Below the pieces are notes generated by a model. The model searched no databases. It was not told the DNA's origin and worked only from the letters and a program-made list of their open reading frames with translations. A stretch of DNA of 64,000 bases from Flammeovirgaceae bacterium. GTDB lineage: Bacteria > Bacteroidota > Bacteroidia > Cytophagales > Cyclobacteriaceae. The translations under genes were made by a program, and so were the position numbers. Each line of letters opens with the position of its first letter. Within the stretch, counting starts at the first letter, position 1. Positions 50,854 through 63,422 of this stretch are shown piece by piece. The DNA lies in the NCBI GenBank assembly GCA_024638265.1, contig JAHEKQ010000004.1, positions 12,641-76,640 of the forward strand. The letters run 5' to 3'.

Positions 50854-53800
50854 TCACCATACTGAAAAGTCAAATTCAAGGTTTTCCTTCCGGGAAGTCG
50901 GATTTTGTTTGCCATCAGTCAGAGCTTCCACCTTACTGATCACATATTCCCGCAGCTCGGAAACCCTGATTTCCCCATCATTATTTAAATCACAATTCCG
51001 GGTCTTTAGGCCCTCCAGTAATGAATAGGTAAATACCCCATTTTTCCAAATAGTCCCTTCCAGGGCAACTTCTACTCCTCCTGCGGAGCTGATTACCATA
51101 GCCCCTGTACCTCTTCGTAAATCAGCAAAAAGCATCTGCATGAGTTCAAAGGAGTTTTTAAGTCCGAGCTCACCTTTCTTATTTTCAAATCCCTTAAACC
51201 CCCGGAATTGCAAACTACCGACATCAATCTCCTCGGTCGTCTGCACAACCTCTTCCTTATCGATCTCCCCGGAATGGCAAGCATCAATCAACAAAAGCTT
51301 TTTACGAGCGGGAATTCCATCTAATAATCCTTCTAATTCTTCGTAAGGTAGACTTCCCTTGGAGGGGTCTGTGAAATCGGTTCCATAGGTGGCAAAATAA
51401 TAGTCCAGATTTTGATCCAGAAGGCCATGACCCGCATAGAATAAAATTACCACATCCTGGGGGTTACTTTTTAACAGATCTGATTTCAATGATTTGATCC
51501 GATCAGTGGTCACCTCATGGTTGAGGAGAATAGTGGAATGAATTTCATTGTAGTCCCCGGATAGTTCTGAAATAGTGAAATCGGCCAGATCTTTCGCATC
51601 TTTTGCAGCGTACGTTAAATTGAAATTCTCATTACCATACTTACTGGCTCCAATGCTCACGAGGTACAAATCAGACTTTCCAAAGGAATGGGTGGATTCA
51701 ATGCGGAACGTTTTTTTCAAGCTTTCAGAACCCTTTTCATTGGTTACGGATACCTGTACCTTGTTTTGACCAGGAGTAAGGGGTATCTCAATTTCTGTAT
51801 TATAGGACTTCCCACTATCAATAATCCTCCCGCCGGAACCGTAAACCGGTACATCATTGATCCAAAGATGGAGCCTATTTAAAGTATACAGACTGTCAAG
51901 GGCGGATACCGGAATTACGATCTTAGAGCCTTCAGTAGTGGGAGTCAGCTGCGATATTTCCCAACTCACTTCCGGCAAATGAAATGTATTGCTTATATCC
52001 TCCGGGTTGAATCCAGTCTTTTTAAGGCGTTTAAGGTAAGCCCGTTCAAATGCCTCCGCCAGACTTTGATCGGTGATATTGAGATCCACCAGGTTTTTCA
52101 CCGCACGATCGGGTCGGTTATAAATAAGGTCAAATTGCTCAAATGGGAATACCTGGGCCCCTTTTTTAAAAGCAATTGATCCAATTGCACCCCTGGAAGC
52201 ATAATAATACCCTTCTTCATTCGCTATTACGAACTCACCCTCGCCCATAAAGCTGCAGGTATAGATCTTACGGAATTCATTTTCTGTATCGAAAACATTG
52301 ATCTTGTCATTACTGCCAAGAATAAGCAGAAAACGTCCATTGATCTGAAAGTTGGAGATATCTCCCTCCATCCCGATAAAATTATAGATTTCCTGCCCTT
52401 TCGAGAGGACTTTAACTTTACCATCTACAAATCCAAGGACAAGAAACTGGCCGTCATTGCTGTAAGCACCCGATCTGATGTCATTCGTCCACTGGTCTGC
52501 CATAATCTCACTAGTACTTAAATCTTCTATTTTAAGATGATAATCTTCAAGGTAGGCGTACTCCAATAACTGCTGGTTTACCTCGTTGAGACGCGTGTTG
52601 TATCGCAGGCTTAATTTGTCCCAACCTTCCATATCCTCGATACTCTGGTACCTTTTTCGCGATAATTCTTTTAGTTTCCCACTTTCAAAGTTGTACTCCA
52701 CCAGGGTCATACCTAAGCTGGTGTCAGACTCCTTTGAGATACCGACTCCGATAAGGGTTTTTCTTTCGGCATCAATATTCTTTACGGTAAAACTCAGGTA
52801 TTCCCCAATGCCGGCTTTAGGCACTGTATATTTCAACTCGCCAGACGCTGTATAAACCAGGTATTCATCAGTATTATTATCCAGCATAAGGAACATGCTG
52901 CCATCTTCAGATAATATAATATTACCGGCATCCTCTTTCTCAATAGTACCGGAAAGGACTTTTTCCCTAATATGATCCTGTAAATCATATCTCCATATTT
53001 CATTTTCCTTTCTGAAATAATAATGCCTGTTATCGCTGCTAAAGGCTCCAAAGTAAGGGTAATTGGTTCCTTCGAGGTCGATGGTTCTCAACTCTGTCAG
53101 GTCAAAGAGAAATATGCCCTGTTTATTGTTGAAGGCAATGTACTTTCCATTGGAACTGATCTCCGAATGGTAGATATCGTTGGTGAATCGATCAATCTCT
53201 GAAAAGGTCTTGCCCTCTTCAAGGTCCCAAAGTTTCAAATTACCCCAGATGTCAGAAGATGCAGCAATGTTCTGATTGGGGTCGTATGCCAGGCTTTGAA
53301 TAAGGCTGTTATGAAAATTATCAGATCGGAGTATCCGGCTTTCTACTTTAGAAATATCGAATGTGGACAGTAAAGTATTGGAGGTCATTCTCAATACGGA
53401 ATTCTTACCGGTAAACAGCTGGAGCTTTCCAGGCTCCTCGCTTATGATAGTGTCTTCGAGAAGGTCATAGATCACAACAGTATTAGGATCACCGAATTCA
53501 ATATAGGATAGGTACCTCTCATCGGGACTGAAAGACATGATATCTACCCAATACTCATTATGGATTTCCGGATTTTTACGGGGAATAGCCTTTACCTGGC
53601 GAAAGATGAAATTCTCATCCGGCTGGAATATTTTAATATAACTCTGGCCGTATGTAGCTAAATATTTCTCTGCGGGGGATACTTTGAGATTGATAATAGA
53701 CTTGTCAATTTCTTCGCCGGGGTTAAGGTTGAAAGTACCAAAACTCTGACCGGAGTTCTGATGGAGTATGACCGGAAAATGCCATCCATGCCGGTTGATG

Positions 53801-55968
53801 GCATATACTATATTTCTCTTCGGAAAAACTTCGATCTCATGAATGCTCCGGTTCTGAAATTCCAGTGACACCGCTTTTCTCAGTTTACCGGTGAAGGGAT
53901 CATAATATTCCAGTCCCTTTCCCGCTGCGACGATCAATGTGCTTCCATTATTATCAAATTCGATATCGTTGACCACACCACTAACGGAGTTGATCTCGGT
54001 TAGCATAAACCCTGTCTGAACTTCCCTAACCCTGATCTTATCTCCATCCGTATTGGCAAGGAGCTTTCCATCAGGGCTGAATACGGTTTTTCTCACTTCG
54101 GAAGTGTTGGAAGTTTGGATCAGCAGTTCCGGACTTGGACTGGTAATTTGCGCGAAAAGGGCAGGGTTGTATACTGTGGAGGTGACAAGGCCAGGACCGT
54201 TTCCAACGATCACCATACTGTCATATAAGGAAAGTTGATCAATCCAGGCAGAATCGAGATTAAGACTCTCGAGGAGATGCCCCTTATTCACATCCCATAA
54301 TTGCAGGTCGCCTTCCATCGAACAACTGGTTAAGAACCTGTTTTGTCTATCCAGACTCATGGCCGTTATGTAACTGTCATGACTGATTAAGACTTCATCA
54401 CTTATCTCACCGCTATTTTCAAGTCCGGCCTCAACGATCCTACCGATACTGCCAAGAAACGCTTTTTCACCTGAAATTTCGATGGAAGTTAAAGGCGTGT
54501 TGAAAATGGTGAAGTCAGACTTATGAGGGGTCCAGGTACCGCGGTTAAGCTCCCAACTGTACAAAGATCCAGTAGAGGTTCCAACTGCGAGCCAGTTGCC
54601 GTCAAAGTCTATTGAGGTAGGATACCCACCAGGCAGGCTAAACTTTTCCTGCAGCTTCGCGCTCCTGTAATCATAGACCTCAACCGAATTTCCATGCCGA
54701 CTTGCGGCAATAAGAAGACTTAGTTCTTCTGATATTGCGAGGAAAGAACGGTACTCTCCTTTATAATTTATTCTCTTGATAACCTGGCCTGATTCCACAT
54801 CCCAGATAAGAAACTCACCTTCACGTGTGCCATGCGCTACTATTTTCCCATCATGAGCAAGCCCATTCACCAATGATCCTCCAATTTCCCTGGGAATATT
54901 ATTGAGCTCCTCCGAGATTTCCTGGTGAAAATATTGATTTTCGGCCAACATCAGGAAATGCTTACCATTATCATCGAGATGTCCTCTTGAATGATAGGAA
55001 GACTTGGCAAAGACCCGGGATAGTAGCCTGCCTTCGGTATCCAATAATTCAATCCGCTTTCCGTAGTTTACTACAAATCCCTTTCCTGGAACGAATTGGT
55101 AGTCCACAACATTCTCTGGCAATTTGAACTTATACTCATTCCCCCGAGCATCGATCAAATCAACGGCGTTGTAGGATGAATAGAAAATCGAGCCATCATT
55201 AAAAGGTTTCATTACAGATCCCGCCAACTGGTAAACTCCAGTAGGGTAAACGTCCTTCAAATGTGTCCCTTCGATACTAAAAAACTGAAGCCAAACCCTG
55301 GAGCCTTGCGTTTTTCGACTGTCCTTTAGGGTTACTACCAAATTATTGGTCACTGTGAAATTTAGCAGCTCCTTTCCCGGTATTTCTGTGATCTTAGGAG
55401 CTCCGTTAAGTGAACGGCCCAGAATCTGACCTGAGGCCATTTCAAACAGAACATTACCATCCGGTGAGAATTTTATCCGGTCACCATACAGATACCCTGA
55501 ATTCTTACTGGCTGAAAAAAGACTGTTTTCAAGCAGACCGGACTTCACATTATAAATATGAATGTAAGAGCGGGACATAAAAGCCATCCGCTGTGTTGCT
55601 TCATTGAAGTCGGAAGCCAGACTGCCGGGGTTAGCGAAACTCAGGGTCCTGTGGTAATTGTCAGCATCCCAGATATGTATTGAATCGCTGAATTGGCCTA
55701 TGATCAAATTATTACCCTTGTCGTAATATACCTTTTCAGGAGATTGCGAACTGGAGCTCAAGCGCATAAGTTCCTTTCCGGTTAAAAGGTCGAACACTGA
55801 AATCTCAGGGGATGGATAAATGACGACCGCTAGTTTATCTCCATTCTTGTTTACATCAAAAGAACGGATATTCAATATTCCCTCAGGAACGTAATTGGCA
55901 ACGAGATCCTGGCTGAATGCCAGTACAGGCAAGACTATTAAGCTGAGGATAATGAAAAAGCGAAACAC
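50854..55968 (-). CDS. Exported WD40-repeat caspase-like protein
   Basis: 1704 residues. Signal peptide MFRFFIILSLIVLPVLAFSQ, then many WD40/beta-propeller blades (to about 1270; e.g. FSPDGKLLANTDGDKIRV, DRQNRFLTSCSMEGDLQLWD), an Ig-like linker (about 1340-1425) and a C14 caspase domain from about 1432. Catalytic dyad: His1514 (FYAGHG) and Cys1564 (IDACHSG). A calcium-loop-like sequence DLNNDGEIRVSE (1660-1671) lies near the C-terminus. WD40-caspase proteins are known in Bacteroidota, but this one is unusually long. It starts 71 bases after the 7TMR-DISM kinase stop. Acts in the periplasm or at the surface by prediction; substrate unknown. Confidence 0.9.
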   Translation of the reverse strand: MFRFFIILSLIVLPVLAFSQDLVANYVPEGILNIRSFDVNKNGDKLAVVIYPSPEISVFDLLTGKELMRLSSSSQSPEKVYYDKGNNLIIGQFSDSIHIWDADNYHRTLSFANPGSLASDFNEATQRMAFMSRSYIHIYNVKSGLLENSLFSASKNSGYLYGDRIKFSPDGNVLFEMASGQILGRSLNGAPKITEIPGKELLNFTVTNNLVVTLKDSRKTQGSRVWLQFFSIEGTHLKDVYPTGVYQLAGSVMKPFNDGSIFYSSYNAVDLIDARGNEYKFKLPENVVDYQFVPGKGFVVNYGKRIELLDTEGRLLSRVFAKSSYHSRGHLDDNGKHFLMLAENQYFHQEISEELNNIPREIGGSLVNGLAHDGKIVAHGTREGEFLIWDVESGQVIKRINYKGEYRSFLAISEELSLLIAASRHGNSVEVYDYRSAKLQEKFSLPGGYPTSIDFDGNWLAVGTSTGSLYSWELNRGTWTPHKSDFTIFNTPLTSIEISGEKAFLGSIGRIVEAGLENSGEISDEVLISHDSYITAMSLDRQNRFLTSCSMEGDLQLWDVNKGHLLESLNLDSAWIDQLSLYDSMVIVGNGPGLVTSTVYNPALFAQITSPSPELLIQTSNTSEVRKTVFSPDGKLLANTDGDKIRVREVQTGFMLTEINSVSGVVNDIEFDNNGSTLIVAAGKGLEYYDPFTGKLRKAVSLEFQNRSIHEIEVFPKRNIVYAINRHGWHFPVILHQNSGQSFGTFNLNPGEEIDKSIINLKVSPAEKYLATYGQSYIKIFQPDENFIFRQVKAIPRKNPEIHNEYWVDIMSFSPDERYLSYIEFGDPNTVVIYDLLEDTIISEEPGKLQLFTGKNSVLRMTSNTLLSTFDISKVESRILRSDNFHNSLIQSLAYDPNQNIAASSDIWGNLKLWDLEEGKTFSEIDRFTNDIYHSEISSNGKYIAFNNKQGIFLFDLTELRTIDLEGTNYPYFGAFSSDNRHYYFRKENEIWRYDLQDHIREKVLSGTIEKEDAGNIILSEDGSMFLMLDNNTDEYLVYTASGELKYTVPKAGIGEYLSFTVKNIDAERKTLIGVGISKESDTSLGMTLVEYNFESGKLKELSRKRYQSIEDMEGWDKLSLRYNTRLNEVNQQLLEYAYLEDYHLKIEDLSTSEIMADQWTNDIRSGAYSNDGQFLVLGFVDGKVKVLSKGQEIYNFIGMEGDISNFQINGRFLLILGSNDKINVFDTENEFRKIYTCSFMGEGEFVIANEEGYYYASRGAIGSIAFKKGAQVFPFEQFDLIYNRPDRAVKNLVDLNITDQSLAEAFERAYLKRLKKTGFNPEDISNTFHLPEVSWEISQLTPTTEGSKIVIPVSALDSLYTLNRLHLWINDVPVYGSGGRIIDSGKSYNTEIEIPLTPGQNKVQVSVTNEKGSESLKKTFRIESTHSFGKSDLYLVSIGASKYGNENFNLTYAAKDAKDLADFTISELSGDYNEIHSTILLNHEVTTDRIKSLKSDLLKSNPQDVVILFYAGHGLLDQNLDYYFATYGTDFTDPSKGSLPYEELEGLLDGIPARKKLLLIDACHSGEIDKEEVVQTTEEIDVGSLQFRGFKGFENKKGELGLKNSFELMQMLFADLRRGTGAMVISSAGGVEVALEGTIWKNGVFTYSLLEGLKTRNCDLNNDGEIRVSELREYVISKVEALTDGKQNPTSRKENLEFDFSVW

Positions 55969-56039
55969 GATCTGAAATTAAGGGGCTTACCCAAGGAAAG
56001 AAAACGCAATAGTTAATTAATTTCAGAAGAATGGTGTGG

Positions 56040-58148
56040 TTATAGGGGGTGCCTGATCTCCACGATAGTCCCCTTCCCATAGGTGCTCTTTAGATCAATG
56101 GACCCACCCAGGAAATCCATACACTTGGAGGAAACATAAAGGCCCAAGCCATTTCCATCAGACTTCTCATGGCCACGGAAAAACATTTCAAAGACTTTAT
56201 CCCGAACATCTCCTGAAATGCCGATTCCATTATCCTTGATGTAGATGATCAGCATATCATATTGAGACTCAGTCCAGATTTCCACCTTGGTAAATCCATT
56301 GTTGGTAAACATGAAGGCATTCTCCAGGACACTTCTGATTACCGTATAAAATACCTGTCGGTTCGTGTCTATCCTGAGGTCATCTTCAATGGCAATATCA
56401 TGATGGACTTCATGTTCATAGACATTTTCCAGGTCGTTGAGGGCATCCAGTATTATTGATTTCAGCCGGATACTCTTCTTGTTGTTTTCCGGCTGATTCA
56501 ACATCCCGACCGTAGCCAATTTTTGAGTGAGTTTATCAAGGTCTTCAACAGACTTGACGATTTTATCATTGAGTTCATAGATGGTTTCTACATCCTTCTC
56601 CATCGTGATCAAATTGTTGAGGCCCAGGATCGAAGTGAGCGGACGCCTGATATCATGGGCCGACCGGTACAGAAACAGGTCGAGTTCGTTTAGGGTTTCC
56701 TTTAGTTTGGCCGTTCGTTCCTTGACAGTTTCCTCAAGGTTTTTGTTCATTGATGAAACCAATTTGTTGGCTTTTCGCAGTTCTTCTGATTGCAGCCTTA
56801 CCTCATCATTGGTCTTCATAAGTAAGAGGTTTGCCTCGGTCAGTTCCCTGTTTTTCCTTTCAATCACTGCCGTTCTTTCATTCACCTCTTCATTTAAACG
56901 CTTATTCTGATCTGCAAGCAGGAGGTTCTTTTCTTCCATGGCCGTTCTCATTTCAGATTCAAGCATTTGGACCCGTTGAATAGCAACTATCGAAAAAATG
57001 ATCATCTGGATCAGGATACTGAGCATATTAGGAATATCACTCAGCACGTAGGTATTGCTTAAGACCGCAGTTGACATCAGTTCGTTCCAGATATTGAGTG
57101 AACCTGCGACCAGTATCAAAATAAAAAGAAGGAATGCTCCCGTGACTTTGCGATAAGTTGCCACACCGGTCACATAGAGAAAAGCAAGGACGGTAATTAT
57201 CCGTTTTTCAATGAATAATATTGGTTGGTTCTGCACTAAGAGGTATATCAGGGATAGCGCAAAAAGTCCTATGACTCCCCAGATTATGTAATTGAGATGA
57301 TCTTTGCCCTTTATATCCAGGATCAATTTAATAGCAAAGGCAGCAGAAATGCTCACCACATGGATTACTATCACGTCCAGGAATAGTTCAAAACCGTGAA
57401 TTGATTTCAGAAAATAGTTGGTATTGATCCCTTGCATCCCCGAAGCAAGGACTGCGTTCCCGAGAAAGTATAATCCCAATACGAGAAACGCCCGGTTCCT
57501 GTTGCTGGCATATACCAGGATACAAACTACCATCAGGAAGGCGGTGATTCCCAAAACAAAAAAAACGCTGAATTGATTTAGTAGAAATTTTGACCTGGCA
57601 TATTTTTCTGATTCAAACTCGATCTTTGTCAGGAATTCAAACTGACGGGAGAAATAGCGGTTTATTGGGGAGTTGTTTTTCAGCCGTAACATATATTCCC
57701 CTGTCTGGGCTTTGCGTAATATGATCGGAATGGAAATAAGGCGGTGTAGAGATAATGGCCTGTCTGCAACGGGTACATCAGTACCCGTCCTCACCGACTT
57801 CCAGCCCTCCTCGGTTTTGCTAAATAATTCTACTTCTTCCCACATATCCACCGTTAAGACAAAATCCTCGGTGTTGTAATTATTGGTGACCTCAAATTTC
57901 ACCCAGAACTGGCCTCCTTTGCGATAGTCAGCCTTGTCAAAGGTGGGTGAAAAGAATTGGGCTTGAAGTTGTTCAAATGCCAGCCCGCTGCTATCAAAGA
58001 AGTATTGGCTTTGCCCGGATATGTTGAGATTGTTGAAGTCTGATTGGGCAGAAGTCTGGTGTGAGATAAGGATTGCCAATATCAGGACTGCACGGTTTAA
58101 AAAACCCACAGGTATTGCCTTGAATGGTCCCCCTTCAATCCAATCCAT
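56040..58148 (-). CDS. 7TMR-DISM sensor histidine kinase
   Basis: 702 residues. Signal peptide (ILISHQTSAQ), 7TMR-DISMED2-type extracellular domain (about 40-185), seven membrane helices (about 190-400), coiled coil (about 405-485), HisKA with SAHDIRRPLTSILGL (His498) and a full ATPase domain (LENAFMF, DNGIGIS, GNGLGLYVS). The intact kinase nearest to two catalytic-domain-less relatives on the same strand. The ligand is unknown; DISMED2 domains are thought to bind carbohydrate-like ligands. Confidence 0.94.
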   Translation of the reverse strand: MDWIEGGPFKAIPVGFLNRAVLILAILISHQTSAQSDFNNLNISGQSQYFFDSSGLAFEQLQAQFFSPTFDKADYRKGGQFWVKFEVTNNYNTEDFVLTVDMWEEVELFSKTEEGWKSVRTGTDVPVADRPLSLHRLISIPIILRKAQTGEYMLRLKNNSPINRYFSRQFEFLTKIEFESEKYARSKFLLNQFSVFFVLGITAFLMVVCILVYASNRNRAFLVLGLYFLGNAVLASGMQGINTNYFLKSIHGFELFLDVIVIHVVSISAAFAIKLILDIKGKDHLNYIIWGVIGLFALSLIYLLVQNQPILFIEKRIITVLAFLYVTGVATYRKVTGAFLLFILILVAGSLNIWNELMSTAVLSNTYVLSDIPNMLSILIQMIIFSIVAIQRVQMLESEMRTAMEEKNLLLADQNKRLNEEVNERTAVIERKNRELTEANLLLMKTNDEVRLQSEELRKANKLVSSMNKNLEETVKERTAKLKETLNELDLFLYRSAHDIRRPLTSILGLNNLITMEKDVETIYELNDKIVKSVEDLDKLTQKLATVGMLNQPENNKKSIRLKSIILDALNDLENVYEHEVHHDIAIEDDLRIDTNRQVFYTVIRSVLENAFMFTNNGFTKVEIWTESQYDMLIIYIKDNGIGISGDVRDKVFEMFFRGHEKSDGNGLGLYVSSKCMDFLGGSIDLKSTYGKGTIVEIRHPL

Positions 58149-58296
58149 TCAGAAAGTAAAGGGGTTTTCAAAAAATGGGAAAGGGAATCGACAAATTTGT
58201 TTAACCGATGTATGATTTTTCTCAATCTTACACCGATACAACCGTGTTTGTTGTAAGTTGATAGCTATAAAATGTTTGTCATCTAATCGCTGTATA

Positions 58297-59130
58297 ATGG
58301 CCTATCCTATTCCCTGGCTAGATTGCCGATTTCCATTTGATGAAAAGGCCCGAAACACCTCGTTGATCCGGATGCTGGTATATAAACTGATAGATTATGA
58401 TAATCCACACATCCTTGACCTTGGGGCAGGGAACGGATCCAACTACAAATTCTGGAAAGATAAGCTCACGACGGGAACACATTGGACTTTCCTGGAAACC
58501 GATGCCGATTTATGTGAAGAGCTTGCAAAGTTAGGTGTGCATAATACCGTGGTAAATGGTACCGTGCAGAACCTTGAAAAACTGGTGGACCTTTCGACAG
58601 TAGATCTTGTTATGGCTAATGCCTTGTTCGACTTATTTCCCAAAAGTGATTTCAGGGCAACGAGCAAAATAATGAAGCTGTATGATCTGCCTTTTTACTT
58701 TACTTTGAATTACACCGGAATGAATTTCAATCCTGGACACCATGACGATGAACTGGTAATAGGGTTGTACCACCAACACATGCAGCGAGAGCAGCATTTT
58801 GGAAGGGCCATGGGGCATGAAGGACCAAAGGATATGGCCTCAACACTCGGTGAGATGAACATCCCTTTTCGAACGGGTGAAAGTATTTGGAATGTAGAGC
58901 CCGATGATAATCTAATGTTAAGTTACCTCCTGGGTTTTATGGATGAGGCGATCCATGAATTAGAGCTCACCACCGGAGAACTCAATAAGCTTGAAAATTG
59001 GCTTCAATTGCGAAGAGCGCAGATAGTGGAGGGTCAACTAAAGATTGTAGTCTTTCATGAGGATATTGTTGGGGGTTCACTAGTTCACTGGTTAAAAATT
59101 CACCGCAAGGGCGCAAAGGGCGCTAGGTAA
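58297..59130 (+). CDS. Class I SAM-dependent methyltransferase, tail formed by a repeat
   Basis: 277 residues from ATG 58297; an upstream in-frame start at 58258 is less likely. Rossmann motif ILDLGAGNGSN (about 40-50) and acidic residue after beta-2 (FLETDADLCEEL) identify a class I methyltransferase. Substrate unknown. The last nine residues (HRKGAKGAR) are encoded by the CACCGCAAGGGCGCAAAGGG repeat, so the natural end of the protein has been replaced or extended by that repeat. Divergent from the 7TMR-DISM kinase. Confidence 0.85.
   Translation: MAYPIPWLDCRFPFDEKARNTSLIRMLVYKLIDYDNPHILDLGAGNGSNYKFWKDKLTTGTHWTFLETDADLCEELAKLGVHNTVVNGTVQNLEKLVDLSTVDLVMANALFDLFPKSDFRATSKIMKLYDLPFYFTLNYTGMNFNPGHHDDELVIGLYHQHMQREQHFGRAMGHEGPKDMASTLGEMNIPFRTGESIWNVEPDDNLMLSYLLGFMDEAIHELELTTGELNKLENWLQLRRAQIVEGQLKIVVFHEDIVGGSLVHWLKIHRKGAKGAR
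59101..59127 (+). repeat. GCAAAGGGCGC-type environmental repeat inside a coding end
   Basis: CACCGCAAGGGCGCAAAGGG followed by CGCTAGG, the common dispersed repeat of many environmental bacteria, read in frame as the methyltransferase C-terminus. Confidence 0.75.
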
Positions 59131-59131
59131 T

Positions 59132-59236
59132 GTGAACATGTGAACAAGTAAACAAGTGACCTACTACGCGCAGCAATGTCTTCGTCTGTTAGTTGTTAGC
59201 TAAATTATCCTCTATCCTCTATTATCTATCCTCTAA
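59132..59236. repeat. Short-period arrays between methyltransferase and DHp gene
   Basis: First, an octamer array GTGAACAW about three to four times, starting directly after the methyltransferase stop. At the other end, read on the minus strand, AGAGGAT heptamers (three copies plus variants) begin two bases after the DHp gene stop, followed by AGCTAACAACTAACAG, which also occurs near 5820. Confidence 0.75.
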
Positions 59237-60109
59237 TTAGCTTAATATATCGCTGATCTTTCGTATAATCTGATCCGTGCGATTGGCACTGTCCAAAATT
59301 TTTTCCAGCTGCGGATCTTTGCGCGCCTCAGGGTAGTCATTCCGGATCAGGCGGGAAAGCCCGATGATACGGGTAAGGGGGGCTCTCAGATGATGGGCGT
59401 TCATGAATGCGTAGCGGGAGAGCTCCTGGTTCCTGTTTTCCACCTCCTCTGTCCTGGTAAGTACCATTTGCTCGAGGTTCTGATTGATCTGGAAAGTCTC
59501 ATCGTGAATTTGCTTCAGTTCTTCGCCCTGTTCTCTGAGACGTTCCTGCTTGGATTGAAGTTCAAGATTCTTCTTTTCTATTATTTCATTTGTCTTGGCA
59601 AAAACATACTTCATGTGGATTACAATTGCCCCAAGTAACAACATCGTCCCTGTAAGTATGTTCTTTTTATCGAGCTGCCCCTCAAAGGCAATCAATTCAA
59701 AGATCCTAAAATAAAAAAGGAGAATGATCAGTACTACCAGGAAGAAGTAAAGGATCAGTCTTGATTTGCCCCTGAACAGGATCATTGCAACCGCAAAGCC
59801 AATGAAAAACAGAAAAGGCGCCGGACTATTGATCCCCCCTCTTGTTATGAATGTTATTGTTGCACCTAGGGCGCTAACAAAAAACATGAAATAGAGAGTG
59901 AATTGATATGCACTTCTCCGGTAATGGATGAGAATTATTAATACAGTAAATATGACAGAAATCACCGGCGCAATAATAGATGGACTTCCCTCCTGGATGG
60001 AACTGTAGGCACGGACCAGTGACCAGAGTATTCCCCCAGCCATGAAGAACCTGAGAAGGTTAAATGACAGCCCGTCAGTTGCCTGAATACTCTGTTGGTA
60101 CTTCATCAT
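59237..60109 (-). CDS. Membrane histidine-kinase-like protein without catalytic domain
   Basis: 290 residues: about six membrane helices (20-165), a coiled coil (about 170-225) and a DHp helix pair with YAFMNAHHLRAPLTRIIGLSRLI, where His239 aligns with the phosphorylated His of SHELRTPL. The protein ends 51 residues after that His, so the ATPase domain is absent and no frame continues it: the stop is followed by a repeat. It overlaps the upstream paralogue by 35 bases. It could accept phosphate from another kinase or act as a scaffold (inference). Confidence 0.88.
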   Translation of the reverse strand: MMKYQQSIQATDGLSFNLLRFFMAGGILWSLVRAYSSIQEGSPSIIAPVISVIFTVLIILIHYRRSAYQFTLYFMFFVSALGATITFITRGGINSPAPFLFFIGFAVAMILFRGKSRLILYFFLVVLIILLFYFRIFELIAFEGQLDKKNILTGTMLLLGAIVIHMKYVFAKTNEIIEKKNLELQSKQERLREQGEELKQIHDETFQINQNLEQMVLTRTEEVENRNQELSRYAFMNAHHLRAPLTRIIGLSRLIRNDYPEARKDPQLEKILDSANRTDQIIRKISDILS

Positions 60110-61019
60110 TAGCGTTTAATTGATTATTGATATCTACATAGATATCCTCCAGTTCATCGGCAGATTCCCGCAAAAGCTTTTTCAAGTCAATACTTTCCTG
60201 AGACAATTCATACGACGGATGCCACTTCTTTACCTCCCTGGAGGTTTGGTATAGTGGTGATTTGACCTCTCTGGAATTAAGCTCCATATAGTCGGAAATA
60301 GCTGCGTTCTTCTTAAAAAGTTCCCTGGTCCTCTCCTCAACCCTTTGATTCAGGATATGGTTAGCATTATCCAATTTAGCCCTGGTCGTTTCCAGGAATT
60401 GGTTTTGCTTTGACAACTCCTCGTTAGAAGCTTTGAGTTTTTCGTTCAATACAGAAATTTCAAGTGCTCTTTTGTTATACGTATTTTTGAGATAATAGAG
60501 CAGTATGCTGACTGCTGAACTGGCTATCCAGAAGTTAATATCCCAGCGGAAGGGAGAGCTGACATTCTCACTTCCGGCACCTAAGAACGTGTACATCTCA
60601 GGATAAAACATGACTGAGAGTATCAGTAACAAGTAAATAGAAGGCACAATAAACATCCAGACTCCCCGGTATACGAGAATGAGCATTGTCAGACTTCCAA
60701 GAGCAGTGAAAGACGCAAAATCTTCCAAGGCACCGGTGATCAGGTAGTGCAGTGACATTACTGTGCAAAAAATAAGTCCGAAGATCACCCGGAGCCATTC
60801 CTTGGCCCAACCTTCGACTTCGAGAATAATTACACTGCCAAATACCAAACCAAAGATCAGGTTTCTGAACTGTAGGGTAGAATCAGTGGACCAGGTATGC
60901 CAGTCGGATATCAGCGCCAGGACAGACCTCAGCAACCCAAAAAAGCAAATAATGATTATAATATTCCCCTCAGGAGAGTTCTCATCGAAAAATCTGCGAA
61001 TGTTGCGAAAAAGGCCCAA
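60075..61019 (-). CDS. Membrane pseudo-histidine-kinase, phospho-His replaced by Arg
   Basis: 314 residues with the same layout as its downstream neighbour: six membrane helices (about 15-170), coiled coil (about 175-240) and a DHp-like helix YMELNSREVKSPLYQTSREV. Aligned to SHELRTPL, the phospho-His position is Arg250, while the following E, hydrophobic, basic, small and Pro-Leu positions are kept. No ATPase domain; a unique acidic C-terminus follows. Probably forms a complex with the neighbouring DHp protein. First gene of the pair. Confidence 0.85.
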   Translation of the reverse strand: MGLFRNIRRFFDENSPEGNIIIIICFFGLLRSVLALISDWHTWSTDSTLQFRNLIFGLVFGSVIILEVEGWAKEWLRVIFGLIFCTVMSLHYLITGALEDFASFTALGSLTMLILVYRGVWMFIVPSIYLLLILSVMFYPEMYTFLGAGSENVSSPFRWDINFWIASSAVSILLYYLKNTYNKRALEISVLNEKLKASNEELSKQNQFLETTRAKLDNANHILNQRVEERTRELFKKNAAISDYMELNSREVKSPLYQTSREVKKWHPSYELSQESIDLKKLLRESADELEDIYVDINNQLNANDEVPTEYSGN

Positions 61020-61113
61020 TCCTTAACCGTTTAGACTTAGGTAATCCTGCAATCTAAGAAATGTGATCATATTAGGCCTTGAGACGTAATAAAATGGTCA
61101 TTTCTCCATAGTT

Positions 61114-62202
61114 TTGAATATGATTCGAGCTATCCCAATGCTTTTGGGCCTGACTATAATATTTGGGTCCTGTCGTGGAGTATCTGATCAACAGGAAAAA
61201 TCACTTCCTAAATTGATATTAGTAACCCTTGATGGTTATCGCTGGCAGGAACTATTTCATGGGGTTGATTCAGTACTGATAAACAGTGAATTCAATTCTG
61301 AAAAAGATCAGCTGACCAGTAATTTCTGGACTAATGACCCTGCTGAGCGCACCAGGAAGCTGAATCCATTTTTTTACGAAATCGTGCAGGAACAAGGAGT
61401 ACTTATCGGGAACCGCAATGAGAATAGTCTCATGGACTGCCGTAATAAGCTCTGGTTTAGTTATCCGGGCTATAACGAGATTCTCACAGGCCGGGCAGAT
61501 GATGAACGCATTCAGTCGAACGACAAAGAACCTAATCCGAATATTACATTTCTTGAAACCCTGAATCAATCGGAAGATTACCGCGGGAAGGTAGCCGCCT
61601 TCTGTTCATGGGATGTATTCCCGTTCATTATCAATGAGGAAAGGAGTAGTGTCTATGTAAGTGCAGGATTCGATAGTGCCGGCTTCCAGGATATCACCCG
61701 GAATGAGGGACTTCTCAACCGGATTCAATCACAGACTTCCGGTCCCTGGGGTACCGTCCGACTCGATGTATTCACCCATAATTTCGCCCTCGAATATATG
61801 AAGCAAAGAAAGCCTGCGGTAGTATATATTGCTTACGGGGAGACCGATGATTTTGCCCATGACGGCGATTATGACCACTACATACGCTCGGCAAAACTTA
61901 CGAACACCTTCTTAACGGAAATCTGGGAAATGGTTCAGACCGATGAGTACTATCGCGATCAGACCACTATGATTATTACTACGGACCACGGCAGGGGGAC
62001 AGTACCCATTGAAACATGGCGTGGCCACGGTGGCTCCGTGGAAGGTGCCGGGGAGATATTCCTTGCAGCGATCGGTCCGGGGATTAAATCCAGCGGGTTG
62101 ATTGAAGGCCAATTTTACCAGGACCAGGTGGCAGCCACTTCCATGAAACTGTTGGGGTATGATTGGGAAAATGGTGATCCCATTTTGGAAATCCTGCGCT
62201 AA
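61114..62202 (+). CDS. Alkaline-phosphatase-superfamily lipoprotein
   Basis: 362 residues, lipobox FGSC (Cys20). Metal ligands and nucleophile of the AP/NPP superfamily are recognisable: Asp40 (LVTLDGYRW), Ser116 in FSYPGYNEILTGR as nucleophile, GETDDFAHDGDYDHY, TTDHGRG and WRGHGG. Likely a periplasmic phosphatase or phosphodiesterase; substrate unknown. Divergent from the pseudo-kinase and convergent, overlapping by four bases, with the propeller lipoprotein. Confidence 0.88.
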   Translation: MNMIRAIPMLLGLTIIFGSCRGVSDQQEKSLPKLILVTLDGYRWQELFHGVDSVLINSEFNSEKDQLTSNFWTNDPAERTRKLNPFFYEIVQEQGVLIGNRNENSLMDCRNKLWFSYPGYNEILTGRADDERIQSNDKEPNPNITFLETLNQSEDYRGKVAAFCSWDVFPFIINEERSSVYVSAGFDSAGFQDITRNEGLLNRIQSQTSGPWGTVRLDVFTHNFALEYMKQRKPAVVYIAYGETDDFAHDGDYDHYIRSAKLTNTFLTEIWEMVQTDEYYRDQTTMIITTDHGRGTVPIETWRGHGGSVEGAGEIFLAAIGPGIKSSGLIEGQFYQDQVAATSMKLLGYDWENGDPILEILR

Positions 62203-63422
62203 TCCCAGACAGCGGTCTTAATGACTTTCTCACCTGCTTCCGTCCCGGTCCAGGCAAAGTACACTTTTCCATTATGCATCTCCATCTGGGGGAACCCACT
62301 GCTTCGGGCTTCACTGCTTTCAGCGACGGTTATTCTCTCCCCCCTTTGACCATTCAAGTATACTTTCTCTGCACGTATAATTGCTTCTGAACCTTTGCGA
62401 CCCATCCAGGATACTACCCCAGTGGTATCGTTGAGTAACCCTAAGTCCACTCGTCCAAGTGGGTTCATATTGTCAATGGATATGGGGTCAGCAAATGACC
62501 TGCCTCCATCTGTCGAGAAGATGACTTTTACTTCCGGGAAGTTGTTTGCAGCGGTAAACCAAGCAACTCCCAGGGTATTGCCAATGGCATCAGCCCTTGG
62601 ACCATTAACCGGGCAGGCAGCAATATTCCAGATATCCTCAGAAACAGTTTTGGGCTCCGTCCATATTCCATCGGTAAACCTTACAATTGAAATATCCCTG
62701 ACCTCCGCATCTGATCTATCCCGGTACATAACGACTGGACCTTCGGAAGTCAGGGCCCCGGTAGTCTGGCAACAATCACAGGTTTTATTATCCAGTTCAA
62801 ATTCTTCACTTTTATTCCCCTCACTATCGAAAACAGCCGTTCTAAGTGTCATAGCACCCTGGTGACCACCCTCATGGTCACCCTCACTACCACCCTCATC
62901 ACTACCTGTATTCCTGCCATCCAGCCAAACCAGTTGGAACCGGTCATCGGGGAGGGGCAGCATGGTAACAAAGCCATGCTCAGTAGGCGTATGGTCATCG
63001 TGAGCAATAATGGGCCCGTTCCAATATTCATTTTGACGGAAAGCCAGGTTCACATCATATGAATAAGTACCCGCAGAACTCTTCGCGAGGTAGTGTGCCA
63101 CCATCTCTCCCTTACTGTTGGCTGTCACCATGGGATAGTCTGCCCAATTCACAAACCAGTTTTTTCCGCTTGCTATGGGCTCAGGTTCTGACCAACTGCC
63201 TTCATCTAATATGGAATATTTCAGTGCAGCATATTCAGGGGTCTGCTCCACCCATGAAAGGTACAAGTTACCATCCGGAGCGGATTCCAGGTGTGGCAGG
63301 GAGCTGCTTCGCGCTGTTGGTGGCGAAATTGAAGTCAAGGAGCTTCGTTCTTGATTATCCGGTCGTTGATTGCAGGCAACCAGGACCGTAATACAGATTA
63401 TTGGTACGAATTTTCCAAACAT
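62199..63422 (-). CDS. Sialidase-like beta-propeller lipoprotein with CDCC motif
   Basis: 407 residues, lipobox LVAC (Cys17). Propeller-type repeats with one Asp-box STDGGRSF and the sialidase-like pattern. Cys215-D-Cys217-Cys218 (TCDCCQTTG) and a later ACPVNGP give a possible metal site. An acidic/His-rich insert GSDEGGSEGDHEGGHQG (173-189) is coded by a short tandem repeat. No true sialidase catalytic Arg triad could be assigned. It follows the CusB-like gene by 17 bases, so a metal-related role is plausible. Confidence 0.85.
   Translation of the reverse strand: MFGKFVPIICITVLVACNQRPDNQERSSLTSISPPTARSSSLPHLESAPDGNLYLSWVEQTPEYAALKYSILDEGSWSEPEPIASGKNWFVNWADYPMVTANSKGEMVAHYLAKSSAGTYSYDVNLAFRQNEYWNGPIIAHDDHTPTEHGFVTMLPLPDDRFQLVWLDGRNTGSDEGGSEGDHEGGHQGAMTLRTAVFDSEGNKSEEFELDNKTCDCCQTTGALTSEGPVVMYRDRSDAEVRDISIVRFTDGIWTEPKTVSEDIWNIAACPVNGPRADAIGNTLGVAWFTAANNFPEVKVIFSTDGGRSFADPISIDNMNPLGRVDLGLLNDTTGVVSWMGRKGSEAIIRAEKVYLNGQRGERITVAESSEARSSGFPQMEMHNGKVYFAWTGTEAGEKVIKTAVWD

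Follow-up and report, generated by a model that had tools for sequence, protein, structure and literature searches.

A conserved pair of DHp proteins without CA domains, one with and one without the phospho-acceptor histidine, looks like an undescribed two-part sensor of Cyclobacteriaceae

Two overlapping genes in the genome of a Flammeovirgaceae bacterium encode membrane proteins that end in a DHp hairpin without a CA domain, and only one of the two possesses the histidine expected to accept a phosphoryl group. Because related bacteria keep the same His/no-His pair, the lopsided arrangement appears to be a two-part sensor of an undescribed kind and not a broken gene. We speculate that the products assemble into a hetero-oligomeric receptor whose only phospho-acceptor His exchanges phosphate with response regulators, a tentative reading to which we give a little less than even weight.

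Results

Two overlapping genes encode kinase-like proteins that end before a CA domain

The pair lies in a stretch of 64,000 nucleotides, the whole of which is referred to as the window. The following features (positions of the window) are needed for the argument.

59237..60109, minus strand: P0001, the downstream gene, 290 aa, ATG start; six-TM sensor, coiled coil and DHp with His239 (NAHHLRAPL), no CA domain
60075..61019, minus strand: P0002, the upstream gene, 314 aa, TTG start; sister layout of P0001, Arg250 replacing the His (SREVKSPL), Glu kept at H+1, no CA domain
60075..60109, minus strand: overlap of the P0001 and P0002 genes, 35 nt
59393..59395, minus strand: codon of His239, the predicted phospho-acceptor of P0001
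60270..60272, minus strand: codon of Arg250 of P0002, site of the lost His
56040..58148, minus strand: intact 7TMR-DISM histidine kinase (HisKA and HATPase_c), outside the conserved module
58258-59130, strand opposite to the pair: gene between the DISM kinase and the pair, weak methyltransferase match

Open reading frames, Pfam and AlphaFold2 agree with a first-pass annotation of this DNA, which had described two neighbouring genes of the same layout that both end before a CA domain. In the AlphaFold2 models (mean pLDDT 82 for P0001 and 80 for P0002) each protein shows five hydrophobic helices, a sixth that runs into a long coiled coil, and then the DHp hairpin, whose alpha2 stops at residue 289 of 290 in P0001. 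The six membrane helices claimed for both proteins were recovered by Kyte-Doolittle hydropathy for P0001; hydropathy gave five segments for P0002, whose sixth is visible in the AlphaFold2 model only. Pfam detected HisKA in P0001 (4.7e-7) and no family in P0002, leaving P0001 as the only one of the two with the DHp and phospho-His of a HisKA-type kinase. The P0001 and P0002 families are homologous along their whole length (hhalign, 99.9%, 5.6e-31), and Arg250 of P0002 aligns with His239 of P0001. The DHp of the P0001 model resembles those of GacS, CpxA, ERS1 and RetS-GacS with high Foldseek probability and E-values that are not significant; PDB matches were confined to the DHp, and the membrane part of the models found no fold match.

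HATPase_c was absent from P0001 and P0002 in the Pfam search and from all homologues of the pair. When all six frames of positions 56000-62300 were searched with a CA profile derived from local kinases, no frameshifted CA remnant appeared after either gene; the sole match was the CA domain of the DISM kinase (56040-58148).

Elsewhere in the window, positions 61114-62202, transcribed divergently to the pair, encode a protein of the Metalloenzyme superfamily (PF01676, 1.5e-5), and positions 50854-55968 a protein of 1704 aa that combines WD40-type propellers with a caspase domain at its C-terminus (Peptidase_C14, 8.7e-12).

The pair is conserved as a two-gene unit within one family

A search of P0002 against 84,980 GTDB species genomes gave no close relative, and the pairs came from family-wide whole-genome searches in which P0002 was compared with 396 genomes of its own family and the loci were then inspected. 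Joined by further loci, the resulting set comprises 25 tandem pairs from 23 loci, the window included, and spans at least nine genera of one family (Cyclobacteriaceae, Reichenbachiella, Ekhidna; genus codes g1, g12, g17, g35, g65, g86, g89, g93 and g96, plus one Ekhidna MAG). Gene order, CA-less ends and a protein size of ~290-310 aa are shared, and the C-terminus lies 45-54 residues from the His in all downstream proteins. The tandem order, the absence of a CA domain and the His/no-His difference, for which the first-pass annotation had asked whether they are conserved, were thus found in 25 pairs. No homologue at such a locus carries a CA domain, and the truncation that had been considered as a refuting case fails.

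The genes of the other pairs overlap by up to 83 nt or stand up to 10 nt apart, a 17-nt overlap being frequent, which suggests translational coupling. The partner is adjacent for 25 of 26 members of the downstream clade, as would be expected of two subunit genes of a heteromeric receptor that obligately co-occur; the remaining member is close to the start of a contig, where bases are masked. Judged by dN/dS values of 0.05-0.11 for both genes (close pairs with computable dS), each gene is under purifying selection.

The distance matrices of the partners correlate (r = 0.94; 0.84 for distances > 0.4), which partly reflects plain shared descent. The upstream, His-less proteins form one clade (support 100/99) in a tree of 64 proteins, and its branching order largely mirrors that of the downstream proteins, which indicates that the His-less partner arose once. 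Strict monophyly does not hold for the downstream proteins, groups of which fall among single DHp-only relatives on long branches, and we are unsure of their exact history.

No response regulator or kinase gene was conserved beside the pairs at the pair loci with their flanks. When the neighbours were compared by eye (L125, L126, L127, L128, L132, L133, L137 and other pair loci), they were alike within a genus and not across genera, for example a His-rich transporter-like or a MutS-like gene. By this comparison the pair looks to behave as a two-gene unit.

One partner has lost the phospho-site histidine

The phospho-site His is found in all 25 downstream proteins and in 1 of 25 upstream proteins. 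The 25 downstream proteins, at ~73% mean distance, show no variation in N-A-H, Arg(+3) or Pro(+5). The upstream proteins carry T (six), Q (four), F (three), E (three), R (two), N (two) or one each of I, V, K, M and H at the site. The contrast between His239 and Arg250 drawn by the first-pass annotation therefore needs rewording: both residues are present, but Arg occurs in 2 of 25 upstream proteins and appears incidental, while a residue other than His occurs in 24 of 25, so that by this alignment the family trait is loss of the His. The concern that the Arg might be unique to this strain falls away as well, as the His loss is not strain-specific. In a single upstream protein the site does hold a His (SSHEI; L131:4758-5852); this protein lies inside the His-less clade, and its His is possibly a reversion.

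An acid at H+1 is missing from all 25 downstream proteins (P0001 has a His there), and Glu occupies this position in 18 of 25 upstream proteins. P0001 hence lacks the D/E at H+1 that marks HisKA-type kinases. His and acid are divided between the two chains, the upstream site including positions 60267-60272. This division may reflect ancestry only, because single DHp-only relatives lost the acid without having such a partner; the complementary loss might even indicate a single active site to which both chains contribute.

Conservation of the membrane domain and of the coiled coil is similar in the two partners, but that of DHp alpha1 amounts to 2.02 bits in the His-less and 2.95 bits in the His-bearing partner. 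This pattern fits the idea that P0002-type proteins retained a partner role and abandoned the phosphoryl site. As the sensor, the coiled coil and the hairpin core are retained and the site is not, the His-less chain may act as a hetero-dimer partner.

P0001 is a member of a wider DHp-only class

Many further proteins that end in the same DHp without a CA domain were recovered in searches with P0001, which by sequence is thus part of a larger DHp-only class in Cytophagales. We compared 137 non-redundant CA-less DHps with 30 CA-bearing DHps from the same loci. Asn at H-2 was present in 134 of 137 CA-less but in 0 of 30 CA-bearing DHps, and an acid at H+1 in 11 of 137 (always E) versus 28 of 30. 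As part of the loci had been chosen by the motif NAHx(L/V)R, the count was repeated on the remaining loci. There, Asn at H-2 was found in 70/73 versus 0/24 (Fisher p 8e-20) and an acid at H+1 in 7/73 versus 22/24 (Fisher p 1e-13), both p values ignoring sequence relatedness. T or N at H+4 was absent in all CA-less members seen, which have A, G, S or R at this position, and was present in only 1 of 30 local CA-bearing kinases.

Long members of the class carry TPR, GAF, PAS or two-component-propeller/Y_Y_Y domains. In two cases the DHp is linked to a receiver. One is an apparent operon (L095:2582-6399, genome G018) that encodes a GAF histidine kinase, a CA-less REC-coil-DHp protein of the NAH type and a REC-SpoIIE phosphatase, the two REC domains being closely similar. 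A second NAH-type REC-DHp fusion was not found among the loci inspected, where 291 genomes of the order gave many REC proteins, and fusions of this type are probably rare. The other case (L287:937-2243 / L323:4670-5976, genome G698, outside the taxonomic class) is a NAH-type DHp-only membrane protein with a lone receiver gene 5 nt on; the family of G698 consists of a single genome.

A DNA pattern for DHps of the Y-x-x-x-N-A-H type, which is strict and undercounts, occurred phylum-wide in 5 of 395 genomes, four of them in the pair's own family and one outside the taxonomic class. In the source genome no member of the class besides P0001 was found. At another locus (L081:5734-8032, genome G027) two tandem DHp-only genes lie 538 nt apart and both have the His, an arrangement that we read as duplication without site loss.

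Discussion

We propose that P0002 and P0001 are two subunits of one membrane receptor. Each consists of a six-TM sensor and a coiled coil ending in a DHp hairpin, and neither can use ATP. The paired DHp bundle would present a single His, that of P0001, with P0002 contributing half of the sensor and half of the dimer interface. We infer that the two proteins associate, that His239 becomes phosphorylated and exchanges phosphate with receivers, that a signal gates this exchange, and in which direction phosphate flows. A heteromer would fit the joint inheritance of the two genes, their overlap, the homology of their products from end to end and the mirrored trees; two separate homodimers are a possible alternative.

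His239 would exchange a phosphoryl group with receiver domains without ATP, in the manner of HPt or Spo0B, since the His and the surrounding Asn, Arg and Pro are invariant while the H+1 acid has been lost. The likely route would be reverse transfer from a phosphorylated response regulator, with the receptor serving as phosphate sink or relay and the signal read by the two sensors gating the exchange. The receiver linkage of the two class members described above, neither of them a pair protein, speaks for such exchange; the lack of a conserved response regulator or kinase gene at the pair loci speaks against it.

HPt proteins, Spo0B and ChpT are helical bundles with a phosphate-relaying His, and in Spo0B and ChpT the bundle is DHp-like and a degenerate CA domain is kept. 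Unlike these, P0001 is predicted to be membrane-bound and sensor-coupled, and it has a His-less partner. The closest described likeness is among archaeal HisKA proteins without HATPase, for which a phosphoacceptor or phosphatase role has been suggested but not proven and which P2CS labels as possible incomplete histidine kinases (Galperin et al., 2018, PMC5847659). Like P0001, these combine a sensor with a C-terminal DHp that has a conserved His and lack HATPase, and REC-containing versions exist as well (PMC5847659). P0001 shows all features of such HATPase-less kinase-like proteins, and P0002 all but the His. The pair differs from the archaeal proteins (PMC5847659) in its occurrence in Bacteroidota, its six-TM sensors, the NAHx(L/V)R motif without an H+1 acid and the overlapping His-less sister. 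No description of a Bacteroidota DHp-only class or of a His/no-His pair was found in the literature, subscription journals being largely outside the search, and the novelty of both is provisional.

The pair might instead handle no phosphate at all and modulate allosterically the kinases, regulators or other proteins to which its bundle binds. Several pseudo-kinases are precedents, namely DivL, RetS with GacS, and truncated ChrS (PMC9491836), in which, as in the pair, a non-autophosphorylating relative acts through its DHp; in the laboratory-evolved CA-less ChrS the His is dispensable (PMC9491836), and a phospho-His is certainly absent from P0002. The known examples keep the CA domain or are laboratory mutants and have a complete kinase as partner, the pair differing on both counts. 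Against a role without phosphate, invariance of the His, Asn(-2), Arg(+3) and Pro(+5) in 25/25 downstream proteins implies strong selection on the site. We consider a phosphate-free role unlikely.

Somewhat harder to accept is a CA domain provided in trans, whereby P0001 would mix with a canonical HisKA kinase, the DISM kinase or another of the many in the genome, and together they would make up a split or mixed kinase in which His239 is phosphorylated by the CA domain of the partner. Homology links CA-less to CA-bearing DHps, the genome holds 38 HATPase_c matches above the family cut-off, and phospho-His and other functions are placed on separate proteins in the split kinases CheA3/CheA4 of Rhodobacter (PMC3591291) and Hik36-Hik43 (PMC7656254). 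In those systems, however, one partner carries the CA domain, whereas neither P0001 nor P0002 does. No CA-bearing gene is conserved beside the pair, though a partner encoded at a distance is conceivable. Moreover, the H+1 acid, which in four HisKA kinases tested was needed for autophosphorylation and not for phosphatase activity (PMC3510030), is missing in 25/25 downstream proteins and ~92% of the class. The first-pass annotation had named the neighbouring DISM kinase as possible trans donor, a proposal that finds no support here. A gene on the opposite strand intervenes, the kinase is not conserved beside the pair, and 0 of 18 other pair loci (~5 kb flank, among L124-L143) have a CA-bearing gene nearby. 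P0001 lacks the H+1 acid that HisKA proteins need for phosphorylation from ATP (PMC3510030), and the resemblance between the DHp of the DISM kinase and that of the pair is that of any HisKA domain.

We regard as more improbable still that the DHp alone dephosphorylates a response regulator. EnvZ without its catalytic domain is reported to have phosphatase activity (Zhu et al., 2000, as cited in PMC5727384), and the same activity was proposed for the archaeal HATPase-less proteins (PMC5847659). Phosphatase activity of HisKA proteins requires T/N at H+4 (PMC3510030), and the CA-less members seen lack it, a weak point against the idea given that it is also scarce among the local CA-bearing kinases. 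Finally, an assembly error, sequencing truncation or decaying pseudogenes, which the draft state of the source genome (173 contigs, 97.6% complete) might bring to mind, are refuted by 24 other pairs with the same ends and arrangement, several on complete or near-complete chromosomes, by the low dN/dS and by the absence of a CA remnant in any frame, and their likelihood is negligible.

Receptors that exchange phosphate without a kinase domain of their own may extend beyond the pair. In a broader and doubtful proposal, Cytophagales would use a kinase-free architecture in which receptors of several kinds (membrane, TPR, GAF, propeller, REC) have a DHp with an invariant His as sole output and serve as signal-gated acceptors or relays on regulators phosphorylated by other kinases; one branch would have become an obligate heterodimer whose His-less subunit makes the bundle asymmetric.

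DHp proteins without an ATP domain are commonly dismissed as incomplete or mis-called kinases. The signature described here (Asn at H-2, no acid at H+1, an end soon after alpha2) divides DHp-only proteins from real kinases and would allow their correct annotation. With the conserved His/no-His pair, nature supplies an asymmetric DHp bundle for studying how hetero-dimers signal and what one phospho-acceptor contributes, and the hosts of the pair, cultured and free-living marine bacteria, are suited to such work.
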